Source of the DNA: a virus
Virus record (IMG/VR): IMGVR_UViG_3300043419_000402
Location: 1 to 29,793 of that record
DNA: 29,793 nt
Direction: 5' to 3' (one strand)
In this document: piece by piece, positions 5,030 to 14,086 of the stretch
How the letters are laid out: each line of letters opens with the position of its first letter
How positions within the stretch are numbered: the first letter of the stretch is position 1
Notes under the pieces: model-generated
Seen by the model: the letters and a program-made list of their open reading frames with translations, nothing else
The model's database searches: none
Told to the model about the DNA's origin: nothing
Program-made: the position numbers and the translations under genes

Positions 5030-6334
5030 TTATGCTTGAGTTGCTACTGCAATTACATCCCATCGGGTGTTGTTAGCATTATATATGCAACCGACATACG
5101 TTGTCTTACTTATTGTTGTCGCTGTTGGCAAAGTTACACCGATAACCGTGTAAGTTGAATCCCAAGTCAATGTTCTGCTAGTTCCGTTATCTAACAACCT
5201 AAAGATTAACTTATCTCCATTCGTAGGAGTACCAGTAGGAGCGTTAATTGTCAAGTTAGCCGCTAGTGCTGTGTAAGCGTAGATGTCTCCAACAGATACA
5301 TCAGGTGTCAAGGACGAAGCACTTGCAGCTGATACATCCCTAGGGTCAATACGCTTGTTTGTGAGCGTCTCAGTACCTGAGTAGGTAACAATAGAGGCTC
5401 CAGCAAGCGTTGTAGCGCCTGTACCGCCATTGGCGATAGCTACAGTGCCAGTTACGTTAGAGGCAGTACCTGTGGTGTTCTGGTTTAACGTAGGAAACGT
5501 ACAGTTAGTTAACGTACCACTAGAAGGAGTACCTAACGCACCACCTGAGACTACATAGCCAGCGGAAGCGTGATTACCCCATCCGTAAGCTGTGTCCCAA
5601 TTAGCTTGACTAGCTGTCGTAGGAATAGCGTACCCTGAAGTCATTGACAACGCTAGAGTACCTGATGTAGTCACAGGAGAACCTGTAACAGTCAACCCTG
5701 TAGGCGCAGTTAAACCTACCGAGGTCACAGTGCCGCTACCGCTTGATACCGTAGCCCATGAAGCATCCGTACCATCAGTGGTTAGAAACTTACCTGCATT
5801 TCCTGTTTGATCTGGGAGAGATGAGCCACTAACAGCAGGATTATTGAAGAAAACCTTGAGTTTCTCAGTGGTGTCTAATGGGAGAACTTCACCAGCATTG
5901 ATTTCTTTACCATCAGTCAGAGTAATGACGAGTGAACCATCAAAGTCAACCCTAGCATCAGCTACGCCTACGCCTTGTTCACCGTCTTGACCGTCTTTAC
6001 CATCAACACCTCTAGGGCCTTGGATGCCGGGAGCACCGTCTAAGCCTCTATCGCCTTGCTCACCTTTAGGGCCTTGGATACCATCTTTACCTGAGGTGAT
6101 TGACGCTGTTTTGCTCTCGATGAAGCCTGAAAGCTCATTGAAGCGGTTCTCTACGTTCTCTTGGATCTTCTTAACGGCTGCGATGACCATCTGAGCCTGA
6201 GTTTGAGACTCAAGTTTCATCTGTTCAGCCTTCAAAGCTGGAAGATTAGCTTGGATGTCCTTAACTAAGGCGAGTTTCTCTGCCTCAGAGAGATCTGAGA
6301 TACCTAATTTGGCTTCCAAGTCTTCTAGTTTCAT
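5030..6334 (-). CDS. Tail fibre with collagen-like repeat
   Basis: The product is 434 aa. Residues 1-80 are helical and probably coiled coil. Residues 82-123 contain about 13 uninterrupted Gly-X-Y triplets (for example GPKGEQGDRGLDGAPG), a collagen-like trimerising rod. After this come Ser/Thr/Gly-rich segments (SSGSGTVTSVGLTAPTGLTV, TAYGWGNHASAGYV, VAIANGGTGATTL) that recur in phage fibre shafts. The C-terminal domain has a beta-rich pattern (YAYTALAANLTINAPTGTP) seen in many fibre tips. It would form a homotrimeric fibre contacting the host surface. Its ATG overlaps the portal stop (ATGA). The role is clear from composition; receptor specificity cannot be read. Confidence 0.8.
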   Translation of the reverse strand: MKLEDLEAKLGISDLSEAEKLALVKDIQANLPALKAEQMKLESQTQAQMVIAAVKKIQENVENRFNELSGFIESKTASITSGKDGIQGPKGEQGDRGLDGAPGIQGPRGVDGKDGQDGEQGVGVADARVDFDGSLVITLTDGKEINAGEVLPLDTTEKLKVFFNNPAVSGSSLPDQTGNAGKFLTTDGTDASWATVSSGSGTVTSVGLTAPTGLTVTGSPVTTSGTLALSMTSGYAIPTTASQANWDTAYGWGNHASAGYVVSGGALGTPSSGTLTNCTFPTLNQNTTGTASNVTGTVAIANGGTGATTLAGASIVTYSGTETLTNKRIDPRDVSAASASSLTPDVSVGDIYAYTALAANLTINAPTGTPTNGDKLIFRLLDNGTSRTLTWDSTYTVIGVTLPTATTISKTTYVGCIYNANNTRWDVIAVATQA

Positions 6335-10813: not shown

Positions 10814-10981
10814 TTATCCACAGGTTACTAACAAGATCTCCACAGGTTGTGCATGAGAGGCGATGAAGCACCTATAAAGTACTACTCCAGCAACACAATA
10901 GTTCTAAGGGTAAACACCTACCTCAAGAGTTATCCACAAGAGGTTGTTACTAAGCTGTGCATAAGTACGTAGTTATCCACA
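10814..10981. other. DnaA-box cluster, candidate replication origin
   Basis: The perfect E. coli DnaA box TTATCCACA occurs three times on the plus strand (10814-10822, 10930-10938, 10973-10981). TGTGCATAA (10956-10964) is a fourth site on the minus strand that fits TTATNCACA. A weaker relative, ATCTCCACA, lies at 10836-10844. An AT-rich stretch lies about 100-200 bases to the left. The density in 170 bases is far above chance and marks a probable origin or a DnaA-controlled region. Confidence 0.65.
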
Positions 10982-11656: not shown

Positions 11657-11740
11657 ATGAACACCCACGAATTCATTGACCGCTTTGTCTTGCCTGCCTT
11701 GACCTTCATTGCTATACTTGTGGTCTGGATGACAGCCTAG
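11657..11740 (+). CDS. Membrane micropeptide, copy A (27 aa)
   Basis: The frame has 27 codons, with AAGGA before the ATG. It starts MNTHEFIDRFVLPALTF and ends in a hydrophobic stretch closing with ILVVWMTA. A single membrane segment fills residues 9-27. Copies B (12044) and C (13660) share the ending VVW[ML]T, and copy C also shares the EFIDR/ELIDR start. Each has its own SD and sits at the end of a small gene and before a foldable spacer. Three related tiny frames with SD sites are unlikely by chance, so they are probably translated. Their function is unknown; a membrane-acting host-takeover peptide or a regulatory leader peptide are both possible. Confidence 0.6.
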   Translation: MNTHEFIDRFVLPALTFIAILVVWMTA

Positions 11741-11818
11741 TCTGTAGAGTCTCAGCGATGGGGCTTTATGGGGTAGGATTGTCTACCTGTCTCAATCAAC
11801 TTGTTAAGGATTAACACA
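11741..11818 (+). promoter_or_regulatory. Spacer A: hairpin plus shared leader
   Basis: This contains GGTAG (11772-11776), loop GATTGT and CTACC (11783-11787), preceded by TATGGG, and ends with the leader CAACTTGTTAAGGATTAACA that carries the SD of the next gene. The same order (TATGGGG, hairpin, TCAATCAACTT, SD) is found at 13744-13831. The conserved leader also appears at 12119-12220. Confidence 0.5.
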
Positions 11819-12022
11819 ATGTCAAACACTACACTAAACACAAACGTAAACGTAATGAAAGCAAGGGCAATGCTAGGCACTGTCTCAGGTGCTACATGCG
11901 TTGATTCTAGCTTACTGTTAGAAGATGATGGATTCTGTGCACTACTCACGAAACTGTCTCATACTGTCTCACTCAATGAGGGCATCGAAGCCTTGATAGA
12001 ATACGTGAACAACAACTATTAA
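11819..12022 (+). CDS. Small early protein, 67 aa
   Basis: The ATG at 11819 follows AAGGA by 8 bases; an in-frame TTG 18 bases earlier lies inside the conserved leader and was not used. The product starts MSNTTLNTNVNVMKARAMLG, has a middle with two Cys (GATCVDSSLLLEDDGFCALL) and ends EGIEALIEYVNNNY. It is slightly acidic with no membrane segment. No family was recognised. It is the gene carried behind micropeptide cassette A. Confidence 0.6.
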   Translation: MSNTTLNTNVNVMKARAMLGTVSGATCVDSSLLLEDDGFCALLTKLSHTVSLNEGIEALIEYVNNNY

Positions 12023-12043
12023 TCAACAGTAAGGGAAAACACC

Positions 12044-12118
12044 ATGAACAATCTCGCTCAATCTGTCTTATACTGGGTTTATGCCGTGGCTATCTTAGTT
12101 GTTTGGCTAACTCTGTAA
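12044..12118 (+). CDS. Membrane micropeptide, copy B (24 aa)
   Basis: The frame has 24 codons starting MNNLAQSVLYWVYAVAIL and ending VVWLTL. AAGGG lies upstream. Almost the whole peptide is hydrophobic, enough for one membrane pass. The AILVVW core matches copy A exactly, and the last residues match copy C apart from the final one. It is followed by a longer, differently folded spacer. Confidence 0.55.
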   Translation: MNNLAQSVLYWVYAVAILVVWLTL

Positions 12119-12220
12119 CAATCTACCGTGAAGCCTATTATGCGTAGGCTTTGCAGTGCATTGTCAATCGCATCCAGCGATGCTGCACTATCTCGCTAAC
12201 TTGTTAAGGATTAACACACC
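12119..12220 (+). promoter_or_regulatory. Spacer B: two hairpins plus shared leader
   Basis: Two structures are visible. AAGCCTA (12131-12137) pairs with TAGGCTT (12145-12151). AGTGCA (12155-12160) pairs with TGCACT (12184-12189), with an inner ATCGC/GCGAT stem (12167-12171, 12177-12181). The segment then reads CTAACTTGTTAAGGATTAAC, the same leader as spacer A, before the ATG of the acidic 110-aa gene. Confidence 0.5.
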
Positions 12221-12553
12221 ATGAAAACCTCTGTAAATTTCCATGACTTCATTGACGCATTCAAACGCTTTGACCGCTATGACGGTTACGGTTACGAAGC
12301 CCTCAAAGTAATCTATAACTACTTGGAAGAATACGAAGAATCAACAGGCGAAGAAATAGAGTTAGATGTAATTGCAATCTGTTGTGACTATAACGTAGAC
12401 ACGCCTTTAAGCATTGCTGAAAATTATGGCATTGAGATTGACGTCAACGAAAATGATGATGAAATTACTCAGCAAGTTAAAGACTTTTTAGAATCGGCTA
12501 CGATTATGCTCGGTGAAACCGCTGACGGTCAAATAGTCTATCAAGTATTCTAA
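12221..12553 (+). CDS. Highly acidic early protein, 110 aa
   Basis: I count 26 Asp/Glu against 6 Lys/Arg, a net charge near -20 in 110 residues. The order is an N-terminal FHDFIDAFKRFDRYDGYGYE segment, a helical LEEYEESTGEEIELDVIAIC core, and a C-terminal ATIMLGETADGQIVYQVF strand region. Similar small proteins with an EE.ELD.IA.C pattern are widespread in phages and unassigned, as far as I recall. Such charge and size are compatible with a DNA mimic (as in Ocr-like antirestriction proteins), but there is no sequence similarity to Ocr that I can see. The gene has its own conserved leader and SD. Confidence 0.7.
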   Translation: MKTSVNFHDFIDAFKRFDRYDGYGYEALKVIYNYLEEYEESTGEEIELDVIAICCDYNVDTPLSIAENYGIEIDVNENDDEITQQVKDFLESATIMLGETADGQIVYQVF

Positions 12554-12568
12554 ACTCAGGGGCTAACT

Positions 12569-12811
12569 ATGTTTAAAGTTATCGAAAAGGATAATCCATT
12601 GGCGGTGCATTGTCTCTGCGACACGTTAGAGCGTGCTCAGTATTGGATTGACGTTAGAGCGCCTTGTTCGCTTGAAAGTGTAGCATGTTGGGTAGAAAGT
12701 CAGTTAAACCTATCAACAGTGGACTTTGTAAGGTGTGTTGATAGCTTAGTTAGGCAAGGTTCCATTGAGCTATCAATAGACGGTGCAGGTATTGTTATAG
12801 ATTTAAGATAA
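12569..12811 (+). CDS. Hypothetical protein, 80 aa
   Basis: The product is 80 aa starting MFKVIEKDNPLAVHCLCDTL with GGGG upstream. It has four Cys (two in HCLC) that are not spaced like a zinc ribbon. The middle segment ACWVESQLNLSTVDFVRCVD could form helices, and the C-terminus is a short hydrophobic strand (AGIVIDL). No family recognised. It stands 15 bases after the acidic gene, so both are probably on one message. Confidence 0.6.
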   Translation: MFKVIEKDNPLAVHCLCDTLERAQYWIDVRAPCSLESVACWVESQLNLSTVDFVRCVDSLVRQGSIELSIDGAGIVIDLR

Positions 12812-12820
12812 GGTTTTAAT

Positions 12821-13330
12821 ATGTCTAATAACATAGAAAACAAAGTTTTGAAACAAGCCCTTGATGCGTTGAAGTTGATCGCTTCACAAGACCAAGGGTG
12901 TGGAGGAACTTACACCGAAGCGGACGCGTGGCGGTCAGCTAAATACATTGCACTTACTAACATTGCTTCAATTAAAGAAGGATTATCAAAGGTGTCCGCA
13001 TTTTCAAAGCCTGTAGCTTGGATGGATGCTAATCAGCCTTGGGACTTATATAAAAATAAGCCTAACATAGAAGCGCTGCCTCTTTATACCGAACCTCCAC
13101 AACATGCGCTCATAGCTGAACACCGGAAAAATAAGTATGATGAACTACAAAACAGAATGGAAACTTTGTTCCGTTGCCCACGGTGTTGGTATTCTGAAAT
13201 TATCCCTAACCGTTCATGGGTTGGTCTTACAATGGAAGACAAAAAAGAATATGTAGCTCAAGACTTTGGAGGTAATCGACTAGATGCCATGGACTGGGCA
13301 GAAAAACGATTAAAGGAGAAAAATACATGA
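12821..13330 (+). CDS. Hypothetical protein with PVAWMD and PLYTEPP motifs, 169 aa
   Basis: The N-terminal third is helical (ALDALKLIASQDQG). The middle has the PVAWMD...PLYTEPPQ pattern found in many small phage proteins of unknown function. The C-terminal part has one CPRC pair (FRCPRCWYSEII) and ends in a basic helix. A related pattern (PVAWRD...PLYTTPQ) occurs in the protein at 16401-16871, so the two share a module. Half a zinc site is visible, which might dimerise. Its stop overlaps the next ATG (ATGA). Confidence 0.6.
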   Translation: MSNNIENKVLKQALDALKLIASQDQGCGGTYTEADAWRSAKYIALTNIASIKEGLSKVSAFSKPVAWMDANQPWDLYKNKPNIEALPLYTEPPQHALIAEHRKNKYDELQNRMETLFRCPRCWYSEIIPNRSWVGLTMEDKKEYVAQDFGGNRLDAMDWAEKRLKEKNT

Positions 13331-13638
13331 AAAACTTTACCAAAGAAGACGCACTTTGTTTAATGAATGAGGCAGGGCTAGGAATCGGAGGGGCGTTTTA
13401 TGTTGAAGATGTGCTCAGGTTTATGTCGTTAGTGGTTGAACGCGCCGATTTAAAACCTAGACTATTAGATGGACAGCTTCGGCGTCTATGGTGTCAATAT
13501 GCGGCTAACATGCACGGCTGGCCCAATGATGGAGTGCCTCCGCTTTGTGATATAAATGGGTATGTAGGCTTTCAAGAGCCTTGGCATGAATCAGAATATC
13601 AAGTTTTCAAAGCGGGCTATCTATCAGCTTACAACTAA
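13327..13638 (+). CDS. Hypothetical protein, 103 aa
   Basis: The product starts MKNFTKEDALCLMNEAGLGI and continues with VEDVLRFMSLVVERADL, probably a small helical N-terminal domain, like the start of the protein at 24789-25040 (EIIEMARQAGMRL...KRFAKLVEER). The C-terminal half (RLWCQYAANMHGWPN...FKAGYLSAYN) ends with the F..GY...Y pattern seen in several unassigned phage proteins. The ATG overlaps the preceding stop, with GGAG upstream. The function is unknown. Confidence 0.6.
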   Translation: MKNFTKEDALCLMNEAGLGIGGAFYVEDVLRFMSLVVERADLKPRLLDGQLRRLWCQYAANMHGWPNDGVPPLCDINGYVGFQEPWHESEYQVFKAGYLSAYN

Positions 13639-13659
13639 TCAACCAAAGGAATCACTACC

Positions 13660-13743
13660 ATGTCTATAAACGAACTGATCGATCGAGTTATCATCCCTGC
13701 TTTGGGCTTTGTTGCCCTTGTAGTGGTTTGGCTTACTGCCTGA
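13660..13743 (+). CDS. Membrane micropeptide, copy C (27 aa)
   Basis: The frame has 27 codons with AAAGGA upstream. It starts MSINELIDRVIIPALGFVAL and ends VVVWLTA. It aligns over its full length with copy A: E[FL]IDR, then two or three hydrophobic residues, PAL.F, and VVW[ML]TA. A single membrane helix is likely, with the charged end probably in the cytoplasm. The cassette is displaced about 1.6 kb from copy B. Confidence 0.6.
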   Translation: MSINELIDRVIIPALGFVALVVVWLTA

Positions 13744-13831
13744 GTTACAATCTAGCTTATAGGGGCTCTGCGAGGGGCTTCTATGGGGTACATTGTGTAC
13801 CGTCAATCAACTTTCTAAGGATTAGAACATC
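13744..13831 (+). promoter_or_regulatory. Spacer C: hairpin plus shared leader
   Basis: GGTAC (13787-13791), loop ATTGT and GTACC (13797-13801) follow TATGG, and the segment ends with CAATCAACTTTCTAAGGATT before the next ATG. Compared with spacer A the loop-closing pair changes from G-C to C-G, a compensatory change that keeps the stem. Confidence 0.5.
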
Positions 13832-14086
13832 ATGCAAGCAATTCAAACACGCTATCTTTGCCCAACTAACTCACGCGGGGCACGCATCAAGGCCTCTTGT
13901 GCCGCTGGTTCAATCACAATCAGCTATCCACACGAGCTATCAGGCCAAGCGGTACATCGCAAAGCTGCTGAGGCTTTGGTGACTAAATTAGGCTGGGTTG
14001 ACCCTTATTATGGCGGCTTATTGGGTGGTTGTCTGCCTAATGGTGACTATTGCTTTGTGTTCACCTCTAAAGTGTCTGAGGAGTAA
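13832..14086 (+). CDS. Conserved phage hypothetical protein, 84 aa
   Basis: The product starts MQAIQTRYLCPTNSRGARIK and has ASCAAGSITISYPHELSG, HRKAAEALVTKLGW and LLGGCLPNGDYCFVF. This pattern (MQAI.T.Y..PTN..G.RI.A...AGS) is familiar from small proteins in many phages and some mobile elements; no biochemical role is known to me. It lies behind cassette C with the conserved leader. GAGGAG near its end provides the SD of the next gene. Confidence 0.7.
   Translation: MQAIQTRYLCPTNSRGARIKASCAAGSITISYPHELSGQAVHRKAAEALVTKLGWVDPYYGGLLGGCLPNGDYCFVFTSKVSEE

Follow-up and report, generated by a model that had tools for sequence, protein, structure and literature searches.

The boundaries between early genes in a 29.8 kb viral record (hereafter the window, the whole stretch of DNA analysed) point tentatively to a new class of translational control. 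An RNA lying between one stop codon and the next start codon would sense the termination of upstream translation through mutually exclusive folds and feed a hairpin that holds the Shine-Dalgarno (SD) sequence in its loop. The stem of this hairpin would be interchangeable and its loop read by a putative RNA-binding regulator, and the whole would travel between early genes as a cassette that also includes membrane micropeptides of a new family. We regard this complete reading as possible rather than probable. The structures are well supported; that a regulator acts on them, and how expression responds, we infer.

The window and its early region

The structural genes of the window, including terminase and portal, are oriented leftward, and the replication genes (primase/helicase, PolA-type DNA polymerase, exonuclease, endonucleases and ribonucleotide reductase) rightward. 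The same three leaders recur in a 36.2 kb IMG/VR contig, a longer version of the window. There is no close relative among named phages: the DNA polymerase shares at most 45% identity with its counterpart in Pelagibacter phage HTVC103P, the portal protein only about 25% with portals of Roseobacter and Pelagibacter phages, and the region gave no match to named phages at the DNA level. A promoter and terminator scan of the window yielded nothing clearly above shuffles and no site at the three spacers. A search for a T7-type phage RNA polymerase in 11 related records found no match, the control being likewise silent. Between the leftward structural genes and the rightward early genes lie three exact copies of a DnaA-box-like motif, TTATCCACA (at 10814, 10930 and 10973). 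The window has no further exact copy, and the interval that they span (10814-10981) is a possible replication origin.

An initial annotation had proposed three micropeptide ORFs with their own SDs at 11657, 12044 and 13660, each followed by a foldable spacer and a near-identical leader. All three are present at these places; the start of the gene after micropeptide A was corrected to 11819. The features of the region are the following.

11657..11740, plus strand: micropeptide A, MNTHEFIDRFVLPALTFIAILVVWMTA, 27 aa with one hydrophobic segment; close relatives in contigs L128 and L140
11731..11787, plus strand: predicted two-state RNA element A, from folds and pair counts
11731-11735 (GACAG) with 11779-11783 (TTGTC), plus strand: predicted outer stem of element A; GACAG overlaps the last codons of micropeptide A
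11742-11771 and 11772-11787, plus strand: predicted hairpins H1 and H2 of element A
11798..11818, plus strand: SD-loop leader A, AACT-TGTT-AAGGATT-AACA-CA
11819..12022, plus strand: 67-aa gene downstream of leader A, with few relatives
12044..12118, plus strand: micropeptide B, MNNLAQSVLYWVYAVAILVVWLTL, 24 aa, the commonest subtype
12118..12189, plus strand: predicted two-state RNA element B, diverged, from the covariance model (E 2e-7) and folds
12118-12122 (ACAAT), 12128-12154 and 12155-12189, plus strand: outer strand, H1 and H2 predicted for element B
12198..12218, plus strand: SD-loop leader B, AACT-TGTT-AAGGATT-AACA-CA
12221..12553, plus strand: 110-aa gene downstream of leader B, PHROG_9974-like, no function assigned
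13660..13743, plus strand: micropeptide C, MSINELIDRVIIPALGFVALVVVWLTA, 27 aa
13747..13801, plus strand: predicted two-state RNA element C, from the covariance model and folds
13747-13751 (ACAAT) with 13792-13796 (ATTGT), 13756-13787 and 13787-13801, plus strand: outer stem, H1 and H2 predicted for element C
13809..13829, plus strand: SD-loop leader C, AACT-TTCT-AAGGATT-AGAA-CA
13832..14086, plus strand: 84-aa gene downstream of leader C, PHROG_3199, no function assigned

Two ORFs without a PHROG match, one of 169 aa and the other of 103 aa, occupy positions 12821-13638 between cassettes B and C.

A conserved family of hydrophobic micropeptides

An HMM run over the ORFs of all fetched contigs, with a membership threshold of E < 0.01, recovered 37 micropeptide copies (32 at first) of 23-28 aa in 34 related environmental viral contigs. 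With reversed sequences nothing reached the threshold, the best match having an E-value of 0.26-0.37; since family members occur in viral contigs and none in the reversed controls, the micropeptides are not chance ORFs. Conservation of the frames and a codon-position bias, on which the initial annotation had staked its case, are both found: pairwise differences among 25 B-type copies number 1872, 545 and 3131 at codon positions 1, 2 and 3, and the median dN/dS of B-type micropeptides is 0.22 (0.36 when the database-search motif is left out). Judged from these substitution patterns, the micropeptides are under purifying selection.

The consensus sequences, MxNxxxQTVLYWLYAIAIVVVWLTL for the B-type and ...E[FL]IDR...PxLxFIAIVVVWMTA for the A/C-type, agree with the shared VVW[ML]T end and the E[FL]IDR start of A and C described initially. 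Both types have the residues A, V, W and T of this end in common, and conservation spans the entire hydrophobic stretch, not this end alone. Comparison shows a conserved peptide of 23-28 aa to be encoded, hydrophobic and predicted to be single-span, which may itself act as a small membrane protein. As had been anticipated for frames of this size, the family is absent from PHROGs, Pfam and NCBIfam (two matches at E 0.05-0.1 fall far below the cut-offs); tblastn against named phages found none, and a search of bacterial genomes found no relatives. These micropeptides form a conserved family that falls under the usual size limits of annotation and is missing from the libraries searched. That they regularly stand next to the leaders offers a practical route to hidden phage genes.

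A spacer anchored on the upstream stop codon

The spacers A, B and C of the window fold better than shuffles (z -2.4, -2.9 and -4.1), and all three are detected by one covariance model built from 13 seed copies, including the diverged spacer B, which lies outside the seed and is yet detected at E 2e-7. Standard pairs make up 95.9% in the seed copies, with double changes in all three helices, and the covariation score is 0.476 versus 0.245±0.021 after shuffling and at most 0.13 in slid controls. The model retrieves 22 good copies, a set that excludes weak matches without the hairpin pattern (e.g. L133, L139, L120 and L135).

Relative to where the element's CTA landmark begins, the stop codon of the upstream ORF lies at -14 to +1 nt in 22/22 copies. 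In the predicted long fold the stop-codon strand (ACAAT in most cases) reaches over H1 to pair with ATTGT. The result is a single long hairpin, irregular and some 20 pairs in length, in which a C-C mismatch recurs. Because ATTGT also forms the loop and part of an arm of H2, this fold and the combination of H1 and H2 are mutually exclusive. By estimated free energy most copies prefer the long fold, the H2 form being mostly 1-8 kcal/mol higher. Covariation is seen in the outer stem (ACAAT/ATTGT, ACAGT/ACTGT, the G-U intermediate ACAGT/ATTGT, and ACGCT/AGCGT) as well as in H2 (GGTAC/GTACC, GGTAG/CTACC, CCTAG/CTAGG, AGTGC/GCACT). The pairs of both were counted by hand, the MAFFT alignment of H2 being wrong in a few rows, and the outer-stem register was set by eye in 6 of 21 copies, the other 15 needing no choice. 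In contigs L129 and L137 the outer strand doubles as the last micropeptide codons. Covariation together with fold prediction shows a spacer that starts at the upstream stop codon and is predicted to form either the long hairpin or H1 plus H2, not both. The structure claimed initially is thus retained, and to it are added the stop-codon anchoring and the alternative folds, which had gone unremarked.

Neither fold hides the downstream SD. None of the window spacers resembles an intrinsic terminator (a G+C-rich hairpin followed by a U-run), Rfam 15 returned no family at gathering thresholds or at E up to 10, and comparison with named phages gave just chance matches of 20-25 nt. Its anchoring on the stop codon suggests that the spacer may sense termination: a ribosome ending the upstream ORF would cover the stop-codon strand and switch the spacer to the two-hairpin form, and upstream translation would thereby be coupled with the downstream gene or with transcript cleavage. 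If true, this would be a compact natural device linking the expression of neighbouring genes.

The main rival to such a termination-sensing spacer is RNA processing, which we hold to be unlikely. The spacer would be a site for RNase III or another nuclease, giving each early gene a stable, well-translated mRNA, and the SD hairpin would tidy the new 5' end. The long fold, an irregular duplex of the length given above predicted between cistrons, fits this proposal, and in several copies the spacer lies between early genes with no terminator-like site there. Processing leaves unexplained, however, both the covarying alternative hairpin H2 and the anchoring on the upstream stop codon, and the SD-loop hairpin is also found in leaders without a spacer.

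A leader hairpin with the Shine-Dalgarno sequence in its loop

Across contigs the leader reads AACT-N4-AAGGAT(C/T)-N4'-CA, followed by ATG, with the SD in the loop and arms that vary but pair. The sequence AACTTNYTAAGGATTA occurs exactly three times in the window, once after each micropeptide ORF, all other sites having three mismatches, and the strict-pattern control for it in the window gave 0. The sharing of this leader had been recognized initially, while the inverted repeat around the SD went unremarked.

A scan of 2.9 million viral contigs that put no constraint on the arms gave 23 distinct sites, among which 18 have fully complementary arms (4/4 Watson-Crick) of the types ATTC/GAAT, TTCT/AGAA, TGTT/AACA, TCTT/AAGA, TATC/GATA and AATC/GATT. 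The pairs formed amount to 83 of 92, against 42±6 in 10,000 arm shuffles (maximum 66), and two of the exceptions resemble chance matches. A replicate scan with CACCATG found 9 of 11 sites fully paired, including the new type TGTC/GACA, 3 of the 11 being from the window's own contig or from contigs already seen. For 45 distinct leaders, picked by AACT, core and ATG only, with the arms disregarded, the covariation score is 0.659 versus 0.214±0.035 when shuffled and at most 0.137 with the arms slid. The sequences compared, here and for the spacer, share kinship, so that shuffle controls overstate their independence. The AAGGATY core before ORFs is fully paired in 39/65 cases with AACT and 2/46 without it, and the same core elsewhere reaches at least 4 of 5 arm pairs in only 3/160. 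Within the MKQSV... gene family alone, the leaders carry six different arm pairs (including TGCT/AGCA, TTCT/AGAA and TCTT/AAGA). Covariation shows the SD of the next gene to occupy the loop of a short hairpin whose stem can vary provided that it pairs. A reading of the leader as a DNA operator was rejected, as the arm sequences vary yet pairing is kept.

Minor leader classes have the loops AAGUAUC (9) or AAGAAUC (few), without GGA. In CACC-AAGTATC-GGAG or TTCC-AAGTATC-GGAG the SD lies in the 3' arm and not in the loop; AAGTATC-class sites are located at L107 5137, L112 4734, L115 4419, L117 4188, L120 544 and, on the minus strand, L132 8182. Arms of unlike types are found at L109 5032 (TCTT/AGAT), L123 507 (TTCT/AGAT) and L163 7217 (AGTC/GACA), as though recombination had taken place inside the common core.

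The free energy of the leader stem is about +1 to -1.6 kcal/mol. With so weak a stem the hairpin alone should not block ribosomes, which naturally suggests a bound factor. The hairpin would then be the operator of an RNA-binding regulator that reads the loop, any stem being sufficient, in a CsrA/RsmE-like manner, and this putative regulator would jointly repress or activate sets of early genes. No csrA gene was found in 11 related phage records, and the regulator is hypothetical.

Linked but separable parts

A leader follows within 200 nt in 28 of the 37 micropeptides, in line with the initial expectation of such frames beside the leader in relatives. Conversely, a micropeptide precedes 28/62 leaders, against a general background of 32/446 SD-bearing ORFs, rates that are biased by some contigs having been collected via one cassette feature; the window was not so collected and shows 3/3. 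The spacer is present at 13/37 micropeptides, and 9/22 spacers are preceded by unrelated ORFs. The leader also serves genes without an upstream micropeptide, among them some that seem to open the early region, and some leaders have no ORF just upstream, as expected for genes in that position. Both RNA elements are thus found at non-micropeptide genes too, and the downstream genes served by leaders belong to many families. This separate occurrence of peptide, spacer and leader indicates that the parts are linked but separable. The cassette proposed initially holds as a combination of micropeptide, RNA structure, shared leader and swapped downstream genes, but not as one fixed triplicated module. 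That the early region consists of recombining cassettes with RNA control elements at their junctions has, in our estimate, an even chance of being correct.

In contig L115 (4945-5075) a second, startless B-type micropeptide lies directly behind the spacer of the first copy and is fused to the AATCAACT portion of a leader; from its arrangement, this copy is evidently a relic of recombination between cassettes, or cassette collapse. Unrelated tiny hydrophobic ORFs also occur directly before the SD-loop leader, at L045 3862-3975 (37 aa) and in L139 (28 aa, minus strand, with its stop 1 nt before the leader core at 5432).

The swapped downstream genes, the collapsed cassette of L115 and the hybrid-looking arms of L109 and L123 would also suit an explanation in which leader and spacer are kept mainly as homology for early-gene swaps, their palindromes being maintained by hairpin-directed copying and not by selection on RNA. 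We consider it quite improbable: the hairpin stands in sense orientation with the SD in its loop just before ATG, the same core is rarely paired elsewhere, and in L129 the coding strand of the outer stem and its distant partner change together (ACGCT/AGCGT). Attenuation of the TnaC/Erm type, in which the VVW-L/M-T end of a cis-acting leader peptide would stall its own ribosome at the stop and thereby set the spacer, accords with the strict conservation of VVW[LM]T beside the stop, with the spacer strand on the stop codon and with a 24-aa chain being short enough for the ribosome exit tunnel. We think it very unlikely, as 24/37 micropeptides lack a spacer, the spacers behind other ORFs follow different ends, and conservation across the whole hydrophobic stretch is expected of a membrane helix. 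Ordinary strong ribosome-binding sites copied along the operon with incidental pairing, although the core does hold a standard SD close before ATG, are already disfavoured to the point of near dismissal by compensatory arm changes far above shuffled and slid controls and by the conservation of AACT outside any SD pairing.

Comparison with known systems

The association of micropeptide and SD-loop hairpin in this group of phages suggests an uncharacterised control of early genes, some parts of which have counterparts elsewhere. Unlike stalling peptides of the TnaC/Erm type, the micropeptide is not constantly tied to a downstream regulatory RNA. The early region of T7 has repeated RNase III hairpins between small early genes, and the present phage, with its T7-type replication genes, likewise has repeated hairpins in such positions; its spacer differs in the covarying alternative hairpin, the stop-codon anchoring and the separate SD hairpin. 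RegB of T4 cuts GGAG/U, prefers an A-rich 3' side and is hindered by structure (PMC3014915); as at RegB sites, phage control at the SD of early mRNAs is predicted here, whereas the GGAU of the leader lies within a conserved hairpin.

The closest working precedent for the leader, by analogy, is the CsrA-type reading of a GGA loop over the SD. At CsrA/RsmA/RsmE sites a short hairpin, often over the SD, carries GGA in its ANGGAN loop and has a flexible stem; CsrA-selected stems are mostly of at most 4 bp with a loop preference of 6 nt (PMC7652899). The leader similarly has an AAGGAU loop, which matches ANGGAN, on a 4-bp stem overlapping the SD, but its loop counts 7 nt, and GGA is absent from the minor loops AAGUAUC and AAGAAUC.

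The closest described system is the SAS/ESAS of cluster K mycobacteriophages; the leader works like SAS without being a member. These start-associated phage repeats were described in 2011, and the literature searched holds no tested mechanism for them. SAS is a repeated SD-containing element a few nt before the ATG of non-structural genes of different families, nearly always in one orientation and with no function assigned; its 13-bp consensus, GGGATAGGAGCCC, has symmetric outer bases (GGG-N7-CCC) and sits a few nt at most from the start codon (PMC3203893). An inverted repeat lies upstream of about half of the SAS, whose arms do not vary, and for ESAS the authors saw little evidence of RNA pairing (PMC3203893). 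The three leaders of the window are likewise SD-containing repeats before ATG, all in sense orientation and early, with 62 in relatives. They differ in their core, AACT-N4-AAGGATY-N4'-CA instead of GGGATAGGAGCCC, in arms that vary with compensation, and in an upstream element that is anchored on a stop codon, has two exclusive predicted folds and often follows a micropeptide. The compensatory changes in this counterpart of SAS point to RNA as the working molecule and make the mechanism testable by arm swaps.
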